36,629 nucleotides of DNA from a virus. Positions 1 to 22,159 of the stretch are shown in pieces. The notes beneath the pieces were generated by a model. It saw nothing but the letters and a program-made list of their open reading frames with translations. It ran no database searches and was not told the origin of the DNA. The first letter of the stretch is position 1; every line of letters begins with the position of its first letter. The stretch is taken from the IMG/VR virus record IMGVR_UViG_3300044470_000341, positions 1-36,629 of that record; one strand, written 5' to 3'. The position numbers were made by a program, and so were the translations under genes.

Positions 1-2593
1 CTTAGGGTTATCAACGAATGACATCCTTAATGCTGTCCAGGAACAGAATATGCAGGTGGCCGCCGGCTCAATTGGCACTCCGCCACAGCCTTCCAATCAA
101 CCTTTTGAATACACCGTAATTGTCAATGGAAGGCTCAGCAGCGTGTATGATTTCAATAATATTGTTGTCAGGTCCAATCCCGCTGACGGTTCTATCGTTT
201 ATCTGAAGGATGTTGCCCGTGTCGAGTTGGGTAAATTCAATTATTCAGGCGTGTCATTCGTTGATAAACGGCCTGCTTCATACATGATGATATACCAGAC
301 TCCCGGCAGCAATGCCCTTGATGTTGCCAATGGCGTTTACAAAGCCCTGGATCAGCTCAGCAAATCTTTTCCAAGCGATGTTGCATTCAATGTACCTTTT
401 GAATCTGTTTCAGTCGTTAAGGTCTCTATAAGCGAAGTGATTAAGACTTTGCTGATGGCATTGGCGCTGGTCGTCCTGGTAGTATTTATCTTTTTGCAGG
501 ACTGGCGTTCTACAATTATTCCGATCCTTGCAATTCCCGTATCCATAATAAGCACTTTCATTTTCTTCATACCGCTGGGTTTTACCATTAATAAGCTTAC
601 GCTCTTCGGCTTTGTTCTTGCAATAGGAATAGTTGTGGATGATGCAATAATTGTGGTCGAAGCGGTACGTCGTTATATTGAAGAGCAGCACCTCCCGCCA
701 AAAGAAGCTACCCGCAAAGCAATGGAAGATATTTCAGGACCTGTTGTTGCCATTGCCCTGGTCCTTGCTGCAGTCTTTGTCCCCGCAGGCTTTTTGCCCG
801 GCATTATCGGCAGGTTATACCAGCAGTTTGCTATCACAATAGCCATTTCAGTTCTCATATCTGCATTTGTCGCCCTTTCCCTCACGCCTGCTTTATGTTC
901 CCTGTTTCTGAAACCCCACCATATCAGTCAATCTTCAAAAGGGCTTAACTACCTCTTCTTCCATTTTAATAAATGGTTCAACAGTAGAACAGAGGGATAT
1001 ACAAACAATGTACGGATAGCGATAAAACATTCCCGTTATATTGTCATCCTTCTGGTTATGGTGTTCTTTGGCACTTATATTATGATGATTAATAAACCCA
1101 CCGGTTTCATTCCATTGGAAGATGAAGGACGTCTTTACATAACATTCGAACTGCCTGAAGCTTCTTCTTCCTCGCGCACGGTGGAGGTGCTGAAGAAAAT
1201 AATGAATATCCTGAGTCAGATTAAGGGTGTCAACCATTATTCTGCTATATCCGGGCTTAATGTCGTCACAGGTTCCCTTAAAACCAACAGTGGCACGCTT
1301 TTCTGCCAGTTAAAACCCTGGGGTGAACGTACAAGCAAGAGTGAACAGCTGTTTGCCATAATGGCTCAGCTGCAGGCAAAATTCGCAGCAATCAAAGAGG
1401 CAAATATTCTTGTCATACCTCCTCCTGCCATTCCGGGACTTGGCGCTACAGGTGGTTTTACTTTTGAACTTCAGCAACGTGAAAGCAATGATGATATACA
1501 AACTTTCGATAAAAATGTTCACGCATTCATGGCAGCTGCCAACAAACGTCCTGAAATTAACCGTGCAATTACTTTTTTCAATACACGAACTCCCCGGTAT
1601 CAACTCACAGTTGACCGCGACAAATGTAAAAAGATGGGGGTCAGTCTGGAGGAAGTGTTTAATACCCTTCAAACATATCTCGGCAGCACCTATATCAATG
1701 ACTTTACTATATATAACAGGAATTTCCGCGTAATTGCCCAGGCAGATACTCTTTACAGGAATGATATTGTTAGTGTGGATAAATATTATGTTCGTAATTC
1801 CCAGGGCACAATGGTACCATTAAACTCTGTCATGGCATATAAAATCAGCGAAGGGGCTTCCATGCTTTCACATTATAATCTTTACCGGATGGCCGAATTT
1901 GTAGGTGATGCAAAAGCAGGGTATAGTACGGGCCAGGCGTTGAAAGCATTACAGGAGACTGCTCAACAAGTGCTGCCCAAGGGATATGGTTACGAATTCT
2001 CAGGATTGAGCCGCGAGGAGATAAATGCAGGTAATACATCGACCTTTATTTTCATGCTGTCAATTTTATTTGTCTTTTTGTTCCTTACGGCATTATATGA
2101 AAGCTGGTCTGTCCCTTTCACCATCCTGCTCGGAGTCCCTCTTGCTGCTTTCGGTGCCATACTGGCACTGACCCTTACCCCAAGCCTGTCAAATAATGTT
2201 TATGCACAGATAGGTCTCATTACTTTGATTGGCCTTGCTGCCAAAAACTCTATTCTTATAGTGGAATTCGCCAAAGAACGTGTTGATCGGGGTATAGAAG
2301 TTGTCGCAGCTACTATCGAGGCTGTTCGTTTACGACTGCGTCCGATATTGATGACATCATTTGCTTTTATCTTCGGTGTGTCTCCTTTGGTATTTGCCAC
2401 CGGTGCCGGAGCCGTTGCCCGTCAGACCATCGGATGGTCAGTTCTGGGAGGTATGCTGGCAGCCACTGCATTAGGTGTTTTCATAATACCCGTTCTGTTT
2501 ATTTTAATAATCCGTCTCACCTATGGCAAGCAAAAACTCGCCGACCTTCAGGCAAAACATAACTCCTCCCCGGCCATTCCTGAACAAAAATAG
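1..2593 (+). CDS. RND family multidrug efflux transporter, inner-membrane pump subunit (5' end outside window)
   Basis: Proton-driven inner-membrane pump of a tripartite RND efflux complex (AcrB/MexB type), which would work with a periplasmic adaptor and an outer-membrane channel. The frame is open from base 2, upstream of the first ATG at 50, and those residues match the porter domain (QNMQVAAGSIG is an AcrB-like motif), so roughly the first 200 residues are missing only because the window starts inside the gene. Proton-relay residues are visible: the Asp pair in GIVVDDAIIVVE (TM4 region) and the Lys in GLAAKNSILIVEFAKE (TM10 region). Two blocks of hydrophobic helices flank a large periplasmic loop, as expected. 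The total fits the usual ~1050 residues. It is the only clearly host-type gene at this edge; substrate cannot be told. Confidence 0.93.
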   Translation, partial: LGLSTNDILNAVQEQNMQVAAGSIGTPPQPSNQPFEYTVIVNGRLSSVYDFNNIVVRSNPADGSIVYLKDVARVELGKFNYSGVSFVDKRPASYMMIYQTPGSNALDVANGVYKALDQLSKSFPSDVAFNVPFESVSVVKVSISEVIKTLLMALALVVLVVFIFLQDWRSTIIPILAIPVSIISTFIFFIPLGFTINKLTLFGFVLAIGIVVDDAIIVVEAVRRYIEEQHLPPKEATRKAMEDISGPVVAIALVLAAVFVPAGFLPGIIGRLYQQFAITIAISVLISAFVALSLTPALCSLFLKPHHISQSSKGLNYLFFHFNKWFNSRTEGYTNNVRIAIKHSRYIVILLVMVFFGTYIMMINKPTGFIPLEDEGRLYITFELPEASSSSRTVEVLKKIMNILSQIKGVNHYSAISGLNVVTGSLKTNSGTLFCQLKPWGERTSKSEQLFAIMAQLQAKFAAIKEANILVIPPPAIPGLGATGGFTFELQQRESNDDIQTFDKNVHAFMAAANKRPEINRAITFFNTRTPRYQLTVDRDKCKKMGVSLEEVFNTLQTYLGSTYINDFTIYNRNFRVIAQADTLYRNDIVSVDKYYVRNSQGTMVPLNSVMAYKISEGASMLSHYNLYRMAEFVGDAKAGYSTGQALKALQETAQQVLPKGYGYEFSGLSREEINAGNTSTFIFMLSILFVFLFLTALYESWSVPFTILLGVPLAAFGAILALTLTPSLSNNVYAQIGLITLIGLAAKNSILIVEFAKERVDRGIEVVAATIEAVRLRLRPILMTSFAFIFGVSPLVFATGAGAVARQTIGWSVLGGMLAATALGVFIIPVLFILIIRLTYGKQKLADLQAKHNSSPAIPEQK

Positions 2594-15378: not shown

Positions 15379-17432
15379 GCTGTTAAGGGGTTGTAGAATA
15401 TTTTACTCACTTTTACTATCGTTGAACTTACCTTCACCTTAGTGCTGTCCACCCTTAGAATACTTATACCTTGATCGTCATTATGGAAACCAAAACGCAG
15501 GGTAGTTTTATAGAAATCCGTATCCGTTGACAATTCAAGCTTTTCGACTTCTCCGTTTCCTAAATTTGTTTTGATTAATTTTTTCGTGTCAACCGTTTCA
15601 AGCCTCGGAAATTTCACGTTCTCCTGCCTTCTTACCCTGAAAACAGAGTTCATGTTGTACAGGGTGTCGTAAAACATTCCTTGTGTAAAGTACCTATGAT
15701 AAAAATGGAAATCCATGATAAGATTTTCCCAAAACATATCACCGTTCACCATGTCCTTGAAAATGCCGTTGTCAATCATGGCACTTTTCATTGGATCACC
15801 ACCGGTATTGTTAATCATGTTGAAAAAAGCAATCTTGCTCCGGGTCAAATCCCTTTTCCATATCGCATTAGCCAGGTCACAAGCCAGGATTACCCAACCT
15901 GAATCATTTATGTCCTCGGTCTTTCTCATGCACATTCCAATATCTGCCATGTACCCGGTTGCCTTATGTTCCATAGGATCACCCTTTTTGCATACCATTG
16001 GAAGGTAGTCAATGGAAGCGGTGGACTCGTCGCCTTCATCCCATACCCAGGTTTCCTTGCTCGGAAAACCATCAGAAGCAAAACTGTATAAATTTAAACG
16101 CTGATTGCCGTTTATATCTGTCAGGATACAATATTTCGAGGGGTAGGTTACAAGGTTGACACCGACTGCCCTGGTTCCTGAATAGCTGTACCCGTTGTCA
16201 AAATATTTGATATGCTCAAACAAAATCTGCTTCCCGTTCATTACCCATTTTACATTAAAGACAACGGAAATCATGTCAAATATTTCCTTGAAAGTAACCT
16301 GATTGTCAATGTAAGCACCTACCTTAAAGTCGGCATTGAGTAAAGCTTTGTATTGTTTTTTAGAAATCAGAACCGGGTTGCTTATATGAGTCGGTTGCCC
16401 GGTAATTGGATTCGTCCAGGCTGTGAAAAAAGTGGAGTCGTACGTTAACCCGAGTTTCAGCGAATTAATCATCCAATGTAAAATATCGCCTTTGTTTTCA
16501 TTATACGAAAACTCAAATAACTTGTATCCCATTTTCGGGAAGTCATACTCTCCGTCCTGGTGTGTTTCAGTCGCCATGAAATACATGGTACTCGGGCAGT
16601 TCGTGGAACCTGCGACCCTTCCTGTAATATTCGGGAAACCGGTATCGTAAATGTCATTTCCCTGGGTCATTCCAGGAAGCATAAAAGGTGACTGCTGCTG
16701 TGCAAAACAATAGTACCTTACGTGTTCCTGCCATAACGGAGATCCGGTAACGGGTTCATTTGCTGAACTTGAAACGTGCTGAGTAACGCACCTGTATGCG
16801 TAACCGTGATCGAACACCCATCCGTCCTCTGTGTCAATCGGTCTGTAGATCTTACCGCTTTCCCATAAAGGGGGCGGTTTGTCTATTCCATACCCTTGAG
16901 TGATCTCAGCGTATCCACCTGCACCTATTGCACCGTGATTATAAACAGGTTCACCCTGCCACAAATAATGTGTGGTCGTTTCCCAAAAATACTTAGGTGC
17001 TACCGGAACAACCGTTGAAAGATCGTAGAAAACGTTAATCTTTACTGCACTATTTTTATCGTACCAGGTATAATCATCATAAGTGGACGGTGTGAATTCT
17101 ATTGAACCGTCGTCCTGGTTTACTTTGGCGGTACTCTGATCGAAGTACCCTGAAAACTCAAGTCCATTCAGGGTAACTCCATTCTCGGATCTCCACGTTT
17201 GCACAATGCAATCCGTCGTCAGGGTTTCCGGAAATTGAATGTAGTTTAGTAAAGTGTAGTACACGGCCTTATTCCTGTAAAAGTTCAGTTTCCAGGTACT
17301 CGACTTCTTCCGGTAAAATATTTGATCCCTTTCCCTTTCCTCGGTAAACGTTACCTCAACACTTAATTTGACCGGGGTGAAATTGATCCCGTCAAAACTG
17401 ATCTTGTGGACGTATTTACGTGCGTAGGACAT
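15375..17432 (-). CDS. Tail/baseplate protein immediately after the tape measure, with CBM5/12-like segment
   Basis: 685 residues. The gene directly after the tape measure usually encodes the distal tail/hub protein of siphoviruses; the N-terminus (HKISFDGINFTPVKLSVEV, then KKSSTWKLNFYR) is compatible with such a protein. Residues ~187-236 (WESGKIYRPIDTEDGW, AYRCVTQHVSSSANEP, SPLWQE) follow the spacing of the chitin-binding CBM5/12-like pattern W..G..Y......V....YxC...H......P..SP.W, suggesting a glycan- or peptidoglycan-contacting insert. No membrane helix. It overlaps the next gene by four bases and starts two bases upstream of the tape measure stop's far side. Product is inferred from context. 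Confidence 0.65.
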   Translation of the reverse strand: MSYARKYVHKISFDGINFTPVKLSVEVTFTEERERDQIFYRKKSSTWKLNFYRNKAVYYTLLNYIQFPETLTTDCIVQTWRSENGVTLNGLEFSGYFDQSTAKVNQDDGSIEFTPSTYDDYTWYDKNSAVKINVFYDLSTVVPVAPKYFWETTTHYLWQGEPVYNHGAIGAGGYAEITQGYGIDKPPPLWESGKIYRPIDTEDGWVFDHGYAYRCVTQHVSSSANEPVTGSPLWQEHVRYYCFAQQQSPFMLPGMTQGNDIYDTGFPNITGRVAGSTNCPSTMYFMATETHQDGEYDFPKMGYKLFEFSYNENKGDILHWMINSLKLGLTYDSTFFTAWTNPITGQPTHISNPVLISKKQYKALLNADFKVGAYIDNQVTFKEIFDMISVVFNVKWVMNGKQILFEHIKYFDNGYSYSGTRAVGVNLVTYPSKYCILTDINGNQRLNLYSFASDGFPSKETWVWDEGDESTASIDYLPMVCKKGDPMEHKATGYMADIGMCMRKTEDINDSGWVILACDLANAIWKRDLTRSKIAFFNMINNTGGDPMKSAMIDNGIFKDMVNGDMFWENLIMDFHFYHRYFTQGMFYDTLYNMNSVFRVRRQENVKFPRLETVDTKKLIKTNLGNGEVEKLELSTDTDFYKTTLRFGFHNDDQGISILRVDSTKVKVSSTIVKVSKIFYNPLTA

Positions 17433-17434
17433 GA

Positions 17435-20152
17435 CTAAACTGAGGTTATGAGTGTATGGTTTCCTTGAGTTACAACCCTCTTATTTCCTATGATTTGAAC
17501 CGTAGCGTCATGCTTTGGTTTGCTCAATTCCTCGTATATTTTCTTTTGGTAGTGGTCTGATACATTCACCGTTAAAGGGTTCGTGGTCTGAAACAACTTT
17601 TCAAACTTCTGCTGATTCAAGGCTTCAAAAATGAGTCCTAACGTTGCATCACCGTATTTTGAAGTAGCTGACCGGTTCAGGATCCCGAAGTATTCACCGT
17701 CTTCTGCTGTTCCGATACCGGGCAAAGGAATACCGCCTTGAGAGTGCCGTTTCCCTCTCAACTTTCCCCCCTTCTTCTTGTCAATAACCCCGGATCCACC
17801 TTCTGCAAAACTCGAACTCTCGATTGTAGCTATTTCCAATCCACCCATGATACCGGCTGCAACGGCAGCAATCAATCCCATCGGCATAAAAGGCTGAGTA
17901 AGAAGGGCACTCGTAACCGCAAGGGCGGTATTGATTATCGCCTGAATGAGTTGTACCTCTTTCTGCTTTTTTGCAGCGTCCTTTTGTATTTTTAATTCGT
18001 CCTGCTTTTGCTTTTCCTCAAGTGCCTTTTTCTTAGTATTATAGTCCTTTTGGGAAATGGTTTTATTTGCTAATTGAGCGTCCAATGCAGCATAATCAGC
18101 ATCGTACCGGCTCTTGCTTTCCTCAAGCTGCTTCTTTTCGTTGTTGCTGATTGCCTTCGACTCAAAACTTAATAACTGTTGAGCGTCCTTGGTGAATTCC
18201 TGAATGATTGCCTTGTGTTTGGCATAAAACTCCCTGAATTTGCCTAATGCTCCTTCAAGAGCGTCACCGCTTGGGATTATCGCATTGTCAACCGGTGTAC
18301 TTGCATCATCCACCTGAACGGTATCCGCTTCAGGTGTAGCTTTGCCGTTTTTCCCTGCGTCCTGCATAGCCTTATCATGCATTTCCTTGATCGCTGCAAG
18401 CTTCTCCTTTTCGGTCATTAAGGCAAACTGAGCCGAAGTAACGAACGAATCCATTTCATGCTTGATAATCTCGTCCTGAGTCAATAGTCCCATTGACTTT
18501 AAGGTCTTATATTTATCGTCTTCCGCTTTGATCGTTTCTTTCAGTCCTGCGTCGTATTCCTTGCGTAATTCAGATCCGGATTTCTCAAGGGCTGCCTGAT
18601 GCTGTTCAGCTTCTTTATCTGCTTTTGCCTGTGCCTTGGCTGCTGCTGCAATACCCTTCGCCTTCTCTCCTTCAATTTGAGTATTCAAAGTAGCTAATCG
18701 GCCCTCAGATCGCATAGTATTGGTATAGACTTCCTGCTGTGCGTCGCCTAACCCCTTCCATGATTCCACAAGCTTGTCCATAGCAGCCTTGTTCAGGTTG
18801 CCGTATTTCTGAATGATATCAGCGAATCCGCTAACTATCGGACTTGCTGAATTGATCTCTTTTTGAAGTAAATCTGCGCTGTCCTTCGTGCCTGGTGTGG
18901 AAGTCACAAACCCACCCGAACCCATGCCTGACATTCCAGCTGATGCAACTTCTGATCCGTGACTTTGAATTTGTAGGTTTGCTAAACGAGTTTTTTTATC
19001 ATTCAACTCTTTAGCTTGCTCGATCAGTTTTTCGTTATTGGAATATTCTTTTACAAACGTGAGCAGCGTTGCTTTGTCAAGTTTCGTAAGAGCCGCATAA
19101 TAATCAGTCGTTTTCTTAAATTCTATGTCAGAATTTTTAACCTTCATGTCAGCCAGGTTTTTTTCGAGAGTGATCGCCTCTAATATAAAACCCTTACGCT
19201 GTTCTTCGGTATAAAGATCCTTCCTGCGTGACTTCTCTAAGTCCTCGTCAACCTTGACCATCGTTTGAGATTCCTGAATAGTGTAGGATCTCTTGCGGTG
19301 CTCAAGGTCGTTCATCACTTCCTGATATTCCTTACCTGCCCTCATCGCTTCCTGCATATTGGTAAGCAAATTGCTCCAATCTCCGTTAGCAATAGTGCGG
19401 AAAAATGCCGCAGTTGCATCTTCCATCCCTTTCATGTAAACCGCAAAGGCTTCCTGTGAGGTTCCTGTGGAATCAATGACTTTCTTGCCGAATTCTATTG
19501 CCCCGTACATGGATCCCACAATAGCGGTCACTCCTACAATCGCACCTTTAATCCCTTCGATAGCTTTCTCGTATTGACCGACGCTTCGGGTGTGGACTCC
19601 GATTGCCTCTTCTTCTTTTTTGACCTGTGTGGTTAGGTCTGCGACTGCCTTTTGCTGTTTATTGTAAGCCTCTGTACCTATTTTCAGGTCATTGACTAAG
19701 GTTGCTTTTTGCTTCGATAGTTCTGCCCGGAGTCGTGCCAAGGATCCCTCCTGAGTGGACATGACCTTGATGTCCAGCTTGTCCTGATCGTTCTTTTGTC
19801 GGAGTGCTTCAGCTTCAGCGAGGATCGCCTTTTTGGTTTCATTGCTTGCGTTATTGTATTGCTTTTGGACGTTTGAAAGCTGATCCTGAAGCTGAGTAAT
19901 AACTTCAAGTTTCTTCCCATAATCAGCGTAAACTTTCTCAAGGTCTTTTACGTCCTTGTTAGTCTGCTTGATGATATCCTGCCCAAATTTGGAATTGCTC
20001 GAGGCTCCCGACTGCGTATCGATCTTTATAACGATCTGCTTTTGCAGGTCTGCGTATAGTTTTTGATATTCTGTCCTGAGTGCCTGTGCCCCTTTTATAG
20101 CATCGTCGAAAATGTTATTTTCGATCAGGTCTTCATGTTTGATCTTTGGCAT
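17435..20152 (-). CDS. Tail tape measure protein
   Basis: 905 residues, long and helical with extended coiled coils (KDLEKVYADYGKKLEVITQL; KQLEESKSRYDADYAALDAQ; KKKALEEKQKQDELKIQKDA). Two hydrophobic segments lie at ~197-217 (GAIVGVTAIVGSMYGAI) and ~730-772 (QAIINTALAVTSALLTQPF, GLIAAVAAGIMGGLEIA), the latter followed by FAEGG as in many tape measure proteins. It would set tail length (at the usual 1.5 A per residue, roughly 135 nm) and help DNA entry. The frameshifted chaperone gene directly upstream is the classical companion. The long tail implied argues for a siphovirus. Confidence 0.9.
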   Translation of the reverse strand: MPKIKHEDLIENNIFDDAIKGAQALRTEYQKLYADLQKQIVIKIDTQSGASSNSKFGQDIIKQTNKDVKDLEKVYADYGKKLEVITQLQDQLSNVQKQYNNASNETKKAILAEAEALRQKNDQDKLDIKVMSTQEGSLARLRAELSKQKATLVNDLKIGTEAYNKQQKAVADLTTQVKKEEEAIGVHTRSVGQYEKAIEGIKGAIVGVTAIVGSMYGAIEFGKKVIDSTGTSQEAFAVYMKGMEDATAAFFRTIANGDWSNLLTNMQEAMRAGKEYQEVMNDLEHRKRSYTIQESQTMVKVDEDLEKSRRKDLYTEEQRKGFILEAITLEKNLADMKVKNSDIEFKKTTDYYAALTKLDKATLLTFVKEYSNNEKLIEQAKELNDKKTRLANLQIQSHGSEVASAGMSGMGSGGFVTSTPGTKDSADLLQKEINSASPIVSGFADIIQKYGNLNKAAMDKLVESWKGLGDAQQEVYTNTMRSEGRLATLNTQIEGEKAKGIAAAAKAQAKADKEAEQHQAALEKSGSELRKEYDAGLKETIKAEDDKYKTLKSMGLLTQDEIIKHEMDSFVTSAQFALMTEKEKLAAIKEMHDKAMQDAGKNGKATPEADTVQVDDASTPVDNAIIPSGDALEGALGKFREFYAKHKAIIQEFTKDAQQLLSFESKAISNNEKKQLEESKSRYDADYAALDAQLANKTISQKDYNTKKKALEEKQKQDELKIQKDAAKKQKEVQLIQAIINTALAVTSALLTQPFMPMGLIAAVAAGIMGGLEIATIESSSFAEGGSGVIDKKKGGKLRGKRHSQGGIPLPGIGTAEDGEYFGILNRSATSKYGDATLGLIFEALNQQKFEKLFQTTNPLTVNVSDHYQKKIYEELSKPKHDATVQIIGNKRVVTQGNHTLITSV

Positions 20153-20183
20153 AGCAGTTCGAGTTAACCGAGTATTACAACTA

Positions 20184-20941
20184 TTACATCACCCTTTTGG
20201 GCGGTTTTTTTTCAACAACTTCCTGCAGGGCAAAGAATTCCTTGACGGTCATTTTCTTTACATCACTGTTCGTGTGATCGCTTAGAATATGGCAGGTCTT
20301 CACAAAGTCGAGTTCCACTTTTACCTCAAGTTTACCGTACTCCTTTGGAGTTATCTGTCTCAGAAAATAAGCATCTATTTCCTGTATTTCTTTTGCCCGC
20401 TGCTCGGTAAACTCTAAAAGCTGCCTCAACCGAAGTTCGTTTTGCCGTTTCAGCCGTTGAAAATGGTTGTACTCGTGGGAGTGGTCAAAACGCTTGGGAA
20501 AATACTCGGTGAGTTGGGCGTAAAGGTTCTCCCTTGTTTCAACAATTTTTTTTTTAATACCGCCTCGGTCAACCCATGTTCTGACAGGGTTTTGAGAATA
20601 GACTTAAGGTTGTCTGCGGACAGATCCGTGACCTGCCGACCGTCTACGGAGTGAATCAGGCAGCCAAAGGCAAGATGTTTAAGGTTTACTCCGTTGATAA
20701 TGTTCCAAACCAAACTCCTTAAATTCTGAACCTCTCCGGCAAGTTTCTGCGGATCCTTTATTAAGCTGCTGATTGTATTAAGGTGAAGCGTGTCGATCTC
20801 CGTGAAGTCGGAACCTATGCCTGAGTCGATCAGTAAATACTTATTGAAGTAACTGTAATTCTCTGCCGGGAGATCATCAATGCTTTCAAATAACTTGAAT
20901 TCAATGGACTTAAGAAATTTATTTAATCGGATCGTTATCAT
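20184..20941 (-). CDS. Tail assembly chaperone made by -1 frameshift (full-length fusion)
   Basis: Two frames sit before the tape measure. Frame 1 (ATG at 20941) runs to 20450. The second frame ends at 20184 and has no good start of its own. On the - strand the codons TTA AAA AAA AAA TTG at 20557-20543 contain an A10 run (20555-20546). A -1 slip there continues as ATT GTT GAA ACA AGG and stays open through to 20184, joining 132 codons of frame 1 to 120 of the second frame: a predicted 252-residue product. This copies the lambda G/GT arrangement, in which the short and extended chaperones bind the tape measure during tail assembly. The ORF pair, shift direction and slippery run are seen directly; frameshift efficiency and the chaperone role are inferred. 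Confidence 0.82.
20450..20941 (-). CDS. Short form of the tail assembly chaperone (no frameshift)
   Basis: The 163-residue product of normal decoding. Residues 1-132 are shared with the fusion; after LKKK the zero-frame tail is QGRTFTPNSPSIFPSVLTTP, low-complexity with Ser, Pro and Thr, unlike the charged helical sequence of the shifted frame, which supports the shifted frame being the selected one there. The start overlaps the stop of the upstream secreted gene (TAATG). It would be the more abundant form, equivalent to lambda gpG. Confidence 0.75.
   Translation of the reverse strand: MITIRLNKFLKSIEFKLFESIDDLPAENYSYFNKYLLIDSGIGSDFTEIDTLHLNTISSLIKDPQKLAGEVQNLRSLVWNIINGVNLKHLAFGCLIHSVDGRQVTDLSADNLKSILKTLSEHGLTEAVLKKKLLKQGRTFTPNSPSIFPSVLTTPTSTTIFNG
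20546..20555 (-). promoter_or_regulatory. A10 slippery run for -1 frameshifting
   Basis: Ten consecutive A on the - strand, read as (TT)A AAA AAA AAA then TTG. Tandem Lys tRNAs can re-pair after a one-base backward slip; RNA polymerase slippage on the same run could give the same product. No obvious downstream stem-loop or pseudoknot was found by eye. Confidence 0.75.
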
Positions 20942-21690
20942 TAGAAAGTGTGCTCTTCAAAAACACCTATATTTTCCTGATTCCATTGGATACCAAAATG
21001 TCCATCAAGTATTTCTAAAACCGGCTTGATACAATGCCATGCAACCCCAACACCACTTGTTTTTTCTTTATATTTCAATACCAATAAAATGTTTTTATTG
21101 GAATCAAAAAAGACTGTATAAAAACTAATAGTTTCATTTGGCTTATTGATAAGACTGACAAAAATTATTAATCCTACCCCATTAACCTTTAAGTTGAATT
21201 TGATTTGTTTTATTACAGATGTTATTGAATCTATGCACAAATGGGATTCATTGCAATCAAAATTTATTTTTTTATTCCTTGTGCCAACGAAAGTTGTATC
21301 AAAATTCTGAATACATTTTTTAAAATTGTCGAATTGTTTATTTACAAAGATTAGGTCATTACAATCGCTATAAAAGTTATTCATATAGTCATTCTTTCTG
21401 CCAGGAGAACATATTTTGGCATAAGAAAAATCCAATCCGAACCAATCTGTTTTTACAATCGACTTGGCTTTTAATGCCCTGACAAGTTGCCTGGTTGCTG
21501 ATGAAAATTCCAGGTATTTTATTTGCTTGATGGGAATATTAAAACTTTTACCATTGGAAATGTAGAATATAGAGTCAGTTGAAACTTCTGTTATTTTACA
21601 CTTCACCGTGTCTTTATTCACAGCAATTCTATGCTGTGAATAAAGATTTACAGAACTAAGTATTGTAAGAAATAAAATAAACTTTTTCAT
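20941..21690 (-). CDS. Secreted moron-like protein inserted in the tail operon
   Basis: 249 residues with a signal peptide (MKKFILFLTILSSVNLYSQ, cleavage near YSQ-H). The first part (CKITEVSTDSIFYISNGKSF, then IPIKQIKYLEF) resembles beta-rich segments common in secreted Bacteroidetes proteins; the remainder is not recognised. It is clearly more AT-rich than the capsid and tail genes around it and interrupts the expected run from head-tail joining genes to the tail chaperone. Its stop overlaps the chaperone start (TAATG), so it is integrated into the translational chain, and a TAnnTTTG box lies just upstream. This is the pattern of a moron: a host-derived gene expressed for the lysogen or infected cell. 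Confidence 0.72.
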   Translation of the reverse strand: MKKFILFLTILSSVNLYSQHRIAVNKDTVKCKITEVSTDSIFYISNGKSFNIPIKQIKYLEFSSATRQLVRALKAKSIVKTDWFGLDFSYAKICSPGRKNDYMNNFYSDCNDLIFVNKQFDNFKKCIQNFDTTFVGTRNKKINFDCNESHLCIDSITSVIKQIKFNLKVNGVGLIIFVSLINKPNETISFYTVFFDSNKNILLVLKYKEKTSGVGVAWHCIKPVLEILDGHFGIQWNQENIGVFEEHTF

Positions 21691-21703
21691 GACTTTTTTT
21701 TTG

Positions 21704-21711
21704 CAAAACTA
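21704..21711 (-). promoter_or_regulatory. TAnnTTTG box upstream of the moron-like gene
   Basis: TAGTTTTG on the - strand, 13 nt before the ATG at 21690, followed by an A-run (GCAAAAAAAAAGTC). No TTG is seen 19-20 nt upstream, so this is a partial match to the Bacteroidetes promoter. Confidence 0.4.
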
Positions 21712-21730
21712 CACCTTCCTGTCAGAGTTG

Positions 21731-22159
21731 TTATTTATTTCTATTCACAACTCTCATAAGTGCTGTTGCTGTCCGGTTCCTGGTTTCCTCAGTCGTCCAC
21801 ATTTTACCACAAGCCGGGTTCTTACAGCGATAGTGCCACATGGTAGAAAAATACACCCTGCCCTGATAGTTGAACTTCCAATTGCTGTGATCCCTCTTGG
21901 CAATCGCTGAACATTGAGCACATGGGATCTCTTTAGGGAATTTTACCTTCAAAGGGTTTTCGATTTTCTTTTTAAATCCGTATCTGATGAAAATTGAAAG
22001 CCTGCCTGCTCGCTTTGCCAGATAGATCAAAGTCTTTTTAACATAATGGTAAATTGTTTCGCTTACCCAAAGAATCCCGGCCAAAACAAAATGATATAAG
22101 GAGATAACAAGGAATTTACAAACCTTGCAAAGTCCGAGGAAAAAGTCTTTACCTTTCAT
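21731..22159 (-). CDS. Membrane-anchored zinc-ribbon-like protein
   Basis: 142 residues from the ATG at 22159, which overlaps the previous stop by ATGA; an upstream TTG is unlikely. The N-terminal third is hydrophobic (FLVISLYHFVLAGILWV), then a basic stretch (YLAKRAGRLSIFIRYGFKKK), then a probable zinc ribbon: CAQC and, after about 27 residues, CKNPAC, followed by a basic tail. Nucleic-acid or protein binding at the membrane is possible. No family recognised; its place between tail-joining genes and the moron leaves the role open. Confidence 0.6.
   Translation of the reverse strand: MKGKDFFLGLCKVCKFLVISLYHFVLAGILWVSETIYHYVKKTLIYLAKRAGRLSIFIRYGFKKKIENPLKVKFPKEIPCAQCSAIAKRDHSNWKFNYQGRVYFSTMWHYRCKNPACGKMWTTEETRNRTATALMRVVNRNK

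Follow-up and report, generated by a model that had tools for sequence, protein, structure and literature searches.

Why would a phage gene directly upstream of a tape measure gene be divided between two reading frames that meet at ten consecutive A, and is this division a defect or a site at which a second product arises by slippage? The question is raised by the IMG/VR virus record IMGVR_UViG_3300044470_000341, of which positions 1 to 36,629 form the window, that is, the whole 36,629-nt stretch analysed here. We hold it to be likely that the gene encodes a tail assembly chaperone comparable to lambda G/GT, with two lengths obtained via programmed slippage at the A10 run, and that the slippage is probably transcriptional in the wider family. 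A first-pass annotation of the sequence had proposed a lambda-like -1 shift at the run and had mentioned polymerase slippage as a possible contributor.

Two frames meet at the A10 run

The zero-frame ORF, which is the predicted short form of the chaperone, runs from an ATG at 20941 to 20450 on the - strand, and its 163 aa comprise the N-terminal domain and a tail of ~31 residues past the run. The candidate slip site contains exactly ten A by sequence count (20555-20546, - strand), reads GTA TTA AAA AAA AAA TTG in the zero frame, and starts at codon position 3. The -1 frame is without a stop from 20603 to 20184 (- strand), and its first start past the run is an internal TTG at 20429; the part from 20546 to 20184 would encode the C-terminal part of the long form, residues 133-252. 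Joined at the run, the two frames give 252 aa, with ...AVLKKK meeting IVETREN... at the junction. Past the run, G+C at the three codon positions is 0.25/0.59/0.56 in the zero frame and 0.55/0.25/0.59 in the -1 frame, and it is about 0.47/0.34/0.5 in ordinary genes of the window. At the run, the codon-position pattern thus leaves the zero frame and continues in the -1 frame, which supports a frame switch. The frames, the joined translation, and the codon-position G+C therefore all agree with the 252-residue product of a -1 shift that had been proposed. The zero-frame tail had also been described as poor, and this is borne out by the AlphaFold model of the zero-frame product, in which the N-terminal domain is confident and residues 143-157 fall below pLDDT 50 (low confidence).

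The frames would fuse with eleven or eight A. Nine A would not fuse them, as TTA AAA AAA AAT TGT TGA leads to an immediate stop, so the earlier statement that nine or eleven A would remove the need for a shift is correct for eleven only. In addition, a window of such composition should contain, by chance, about one A/T run of 10 or more; the A10 of the window alone is therefore no argument against chance, and it is the conservation in relatives that makes the argument. The ten-A run had been called unusual, which does not apply to its mere occurrence but does apply to its conservation, which is beyond chance.

Identity and genomic context of the gene

The 252-aa fusion gives a full-length match to the phrog_8914 profile (E 2.6e-48, profile positions 9-248 of 250), and the N-terminal part of the window gene, up to the run, also matches phrog_8914. 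The next gene downstream (17435-20152, - strand) encodes a tape measure protein (phrog_20660, tail length tape measure protein, E 8e-8), as the first-pass annotation had expected. Homologs of the chaperone gene are found in 75 GenBank phage records, and phrog_8914 members include Bacteroides B124-14/B40-8, Croceibacter P2559Y, and Flavobacterium and Parabacteroides phages. In the annotated relatives inspected, the homolog is located directly upstream of a named tape measure gene, or of a large unnamed gene in that place. PHROGs and RefSeq label these relatives as ‘virion structural protein’ (in PHROGs, under head and packaging), several depositors label them as tail assembly chaperone, and for Flavobacterium phage 1/32 the depositor annotates a frame join at an A10. 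In the AlphaFold model of a one-frame relative (pLDDT 89), the run falls within a helix (residues 121-142) between the N-terminal domain and the helical C-terminal half.

Searches of Pfam, NCBIfam, PDB sequences, and PDB folds gave no significant match to a characterised tail chaperone, and BFVD matches to named tail chaperones reach only E 0.4-0.5. The name therefore rests on position and architecture: the gene is predicted to work like a tail chaperone, while common descent with the known ones is not supported by the searches. With this qualification, the profile match, the position, and the two-length architecture agree with the chaperone type proposed earlier. The lack of homology to characterised tail chaperones and the PHROGs label would also fit another morphogenesis protein made in two lengths. 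However, the gene has a fixed place before the tape measure gene together with a two-length architecture, and its sizes of 252 and 163 residues can be set beside the about 279 and 140 residues of the lambda tail chaperone. In B124-14, three virion proteins have been identified by mass spectrometry, and the product of the chaperone gene is not named among them in the accessible part of that report (PMC3338817), which likewise argues against another morphogenesis protein. We consider such a protein unlikely.

A DNA-level search of GenBank phages with window positions 17000-22000 returned no match, and neither did the plasmid collection. A scan of genome contigs using the window protein alone found no relative, and a search for closer relatives with the neighbouring 428-aa protein returned the identical contig only (see below). 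Directly before the chaperone gene lies an AT-rich ORF of 249 aa (20941-21690, - strand; GC3 0.28 vs about 0.5), with a signal-peptide-like start, no family match, and a stop overlapping with the start of the chaperone gene (TAATG); in several relatives, an ORF of ~86 aa takes its place. At the left edge of the window (50-2593, + strand) is an 847-aa ORF resembling RND-type efflux transporters, which may be host DNA flanking a prophage.

Conservation of the run in relatives

Among 147 distinct sequences, the two halves form a single open frame in 132, and 13, the window included, are short-first, meaning that normal reading gives the short form. A run of A8-A11 occupies the corresponding site in 145 of the 147, and fused relatives keep it inside their single frame, so the conserved feature is the run and not the frame break. 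The first-pass annotation had suggested comparing the conservation of run and frames, and had named fused relatives lacking the run as evidence against a shift; most relatives are indeed fused, but they retain the run. The run was present in all 84 loci of the first sample. About 80 loci were recruited by N-terminal patterns without the run, which was no search criterion there, and some first-scan loci were found through a pattern containing KKKI, which has no bias to AAA over AAG. Because counts of related phages are not independent events, we also report clusters and changes on trees.

None of the 282 lysine codons at the site is AAG (94 one-frame genes with three lysines each, all AAA), whereas 829 of the 2018 lysine codons elsewhere in the same genes (41%) are. 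Even when each 70% cluster is represented by a single sequence (41 clusters below 70% identity), the chance of an all-AAA site is about 1e-36 under independence. Across 122 conserved codon columns, synonymous variety is strongly reduced only at the three lysines and at the valine that precedes them (GTC, 89%). Runs of at least 9 are found at the site in 140 of 142 loci, vs 0.09 expected from the flanks, and 822 kb of flanking sequence holds three A/T runs of 9 or more and none of 10. The family therefore shows nucleotide-level selection on a homopolymer of about 9 or more A/T. In one-frame relatives, the non-zero frames close soon past the run, and the +1 frame stops at 0 or 4 codons in 61 of 65. 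We are highly confident that the run is a programmed slip site, whether it is the polymerase or the ribosome that slips.

In an outlier pair of loci (L208/L209), the run is replaced by CGA AAA AAG (around locus positions 2381-2392), which contains A_AAA_AAG and possibly marks a change of mechanism, with ribosomal slippage taking over from transcriptional slippage. Both the run and A_AAA_AAG are missing from a very distant homolog (L115). The run of the window aligns ~7 codons upstream of the position that is usual in relatives, so it may be relocated rather than strictly homologous.

An RNA hairpin behind the run

Compared with synonymous shuffles, RNA at -30 to +15 of the run has much greater stability than expected, with a mean z of -2.11 and 32 of 40 clusters below -1.5. 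No structure was found 3' of the run in the family, where windows just downstream have z about 0 or above by the same comparison. Within the class with an in-phase A10, z is below -1.5 in 38 of 51 clusters, and in the main long-first lineage of this class the last pair lies 0-1 nt from the run in 46 of 51. Pairing in the main register exceeds 500 shuffles, while neighbouring registers at most reach the top of theirs, and the count of compensatory pairs is also above 500 shuffles (85% clustering, 78 clusters). The hairpin also explains the constraint on GTC, which forms the 3' end of the stem. It is present in 8 of 41 among the A9, A11, and short-first lineages, vs 88 of 104 among the others. 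In the window, a weak hairpin (ACCG-AGG-CGGT; 20559-20569, - strand) ends 3 nt before the run and is not significant (z -0.76, 16th percentile of the gene). Given this weakness, and since hairpins are mostly absent from short-first lineages, the hairpin argument is not transferable to the window. Rfam and tRNA scans of the window gave no matches. The hairpin and run were also considered as an intrinsic terminator, which is ruled out because the coding strand has A and not U in the tract that follows the hairpin.

Flips between short-first and long-first phases

A shift of -1 is needed in 11 of the 13 short-first cases (the window, Flavobacterium 1/32 or L006, L103, L104, L111, L114, L203-L206, and L211), while P2559S (L016, A8) and BF8P1 (L019, A11) need +1. 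L103 and L104 come from MAGs labelled Clostridia and Bacillota with an otherwise Bacteroidota-type phage module, reflecting either misbinning or a wider host range. On trees, a minimum of 10 phase changes is required, or 8 with long branches removed. BF8P1 and B124-14 (L010, A10) are near-identical Bacteroides phages that differ in run length, and as a result the gene is annotated as two genes in the former and as one in the latter. Short-first and long-first are mirror-image states of a single slip site, and the window represents the former. A flip would abolish normal full-length reading, yet the downstream frame stays open, and from this both frames are presumably expressed in either state.

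Such differences in count between near-identical phages, and the single frame of most relatives, could also mean that the A count of the window results from an error in sequencing or assembly, or from a mutation that disables the gene, and that the true or ancestral gene has one frame. However, a second IMG/VR contig (3300044823_000209) shows 100% identity across 5,494 bp, the A10 among them, although its sample may not be fully independent, and independent short-first relatives have an A10 in the same phase with intact downstream frames. We judge an error or a disabling mutation to be very unlikely. On the other hand, homopolymer length that varies between close relatives could point to a phase-variation switch of the phage driven by replication slippage, and two circular F. 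psychrophilum phage records open exactly at the run. These Flavobacterium phage records, FPSV-D22 (MK764439; L018/L212) and FPSV-S3 (MK764444; L213/L214), suggest that assembly broke at the run, either because the A count was heterogeneous or because of a problem with the reads. However, a chaperone that tails require is hardly a plausible ON/OFF target, and a switch would not need a fixed length of 9-11 with an abutting hairpin, which makes phase variation very unlikely. A programmed slip site remains our reading of the run.

Which machine slips

The long and short forms would share their N-terminal domain. In the window, expression without a slip would give the 163-aa short form, whereas a transcript with one extra A or two fewer, or a ribosome stepping back one base, would give the 252-aa long form. 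In most relatives, the run is in phase with the long frame, and slippage would give a short form that ends within a few codons. The slip is probably made by RNA polymerase, whose RNA-DNA hybrid of 9–10 bp is matched by the run; a hairpin in the nascent RNA stands directly behind the run in the main lineage. We infer that the phage makes both forms, that the balance between them is important to tail assembly, and that it is the polymerase, not the ribosome, which slips.

Bacterial slippage works efficiently on tracts of nine A or T, a length close to the 9–10 bp hybrid (PMC5009743). Transcriptional slippage is the mechanism that we favour as probable for the family, based on the 5' stem-loop, a run length near that of the hybrid, the mirror precedent of tssM, and the fact that a heptamer needs only seven A. 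For the window we favour it somewhat less strongly, because its hairpin is weak and a -1 shift is also what a ribosome gives. Ribosomal -1 frameshifting at A_AAA_AAA through tRNA-Lys slippage, in the manner of lambda G/GT and HK97-like phages, would leave the run length incidental. Heptamers of the right type are indeed in the zero frame of the window, most short-first relatives need exactly -1, L208 has the classic ribosomal -1 site A_AAA_AAG, and tail chaperones elsewhere employ ribosomal frameshifting (PMC5009743). However, seven A would suffice for the ribosome and AAG would be tolerated as the last codon, being an efficient motif there in E. coli slip heptamers (PMC4066793), yet 8–11 A without AAG are kept. 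The structure is 5' of the run and abuts it, with none 3', and L016 and L019 need +1. We regard ribosomal frameshifting as possible but doubtful.

Thus, the lambda-like -1 recoding proposed earlier stands insofar as the window needs -1, but the family evidence favours RNA polymerase slippage over ribosomal slippage. Polymerase slippage, which had been put forward as a contributor, is the better-supported mechanism in the family (a run of 8–11, AAA only, an adjacent 5' hairpin, and no 3' structure). On balance, we lean towards a broad lineage of Bacteroidota siphoviruses in which the long:short ratio of the chaperone is determined by RNA polymerase slipping at a conserved hairpin-plus-A10 element and not by ribosomal frameshifting. 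Since slipped transcripts would feed both frames, the genomic phase would then be nearly free to flip, as it has at least 8–10 times.

Frameshifting in tail chaperones is a textbook example of recoding by the ribosome, and in this phrog_8914-type gene family a different machine appears to serve the same two-product logic. If true, it would be the first case, as far as the literature searched shows, of a phage tail chaperone whose recoding takes place during transcription. Two-product tail chaperones and stem-loop-assisted slippage are each already known. In the literature searched, which covers subscription journals sparsely, we found no report of transcriptional slippage in tail chaperones, nor of a phage family that combines the two, with the site concealed inside intact ORFs and its phase flipping repeatedly. 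Most annotations give the family as a single unbroken ‘virion structural protein’, so gene callers do not see the short product, and the in-frame cases warn that programmed slippage can hide within intact ORFs and be missed by searches for broken genes. The element is compact, consisting of a hairpin of about 22 nt and the A10, and the mirrored phases provide natural pairs for measuring how the direction and efficiency of slippage set the ratio.

Comparison with known systems

One comparison is with the phrog_8914 relatives, which share full-length homology, synteny, and the same kind of A-run site with the window, and differ in that the window is short-first with its run further upstream. The slip sequence of lambda is G_GGA_AAG. 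The lambda tail assembly chaperone gpG/gpGT is made by a ribosomal -1 frameshift (reviewed in PMC5009743). Like it, the gene studied here is just upstream of the tape measure gene, would make short and long forms with a common N-terminal domain, and needs -1 for the long form in the window. Unlike lambda, it has an A10 homopolymer and no detectable homology, most relatives are long-first, the main lineage has a 5' hairpin, and the slip is probably made by RNA polymerase.

Cases of transcriptional slippage in bacteria also bear comparison. Thermus thermophilus dnaX slips on a run of nine (PMC5009743). As in the long-first relatives here, its long form is in the zero frame and slippage leads to a short form, with stops in both other frames, whereas dnaX is a cellular gene with about 50% slippage. 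To our knowledge, no abutting hairpin is known for it. In Roseiflexus IS630, a stem-loop beside T5C5 stimulates RNA polymerase slippage (reviewed in PMC5009743), and in IS1447, where an A9 follows a stem-loop, stem-loop-stimulated slippage has been proposed (PMC6211511). Both resemble the main lineage in having an RNA stem-loop directly 5' of the slippery run, although they are transposases and not phage morphogenesis genes. Finally, transcriptional frameshifting at poly-A has been described for tssM1 of Citrobacter rodentium (A11) and tssM3 of Yersinia pseudotuberculosis (PMC4256274). Unlike the family studied here, tssM is a type VI secretion gene and not a phage gene, and it has no family-wide conserved site with a hairpin; like this family, it comes in two length variants, with a short-first gene in one species and a long-first gene in the other, which is the same mirror arrangement.
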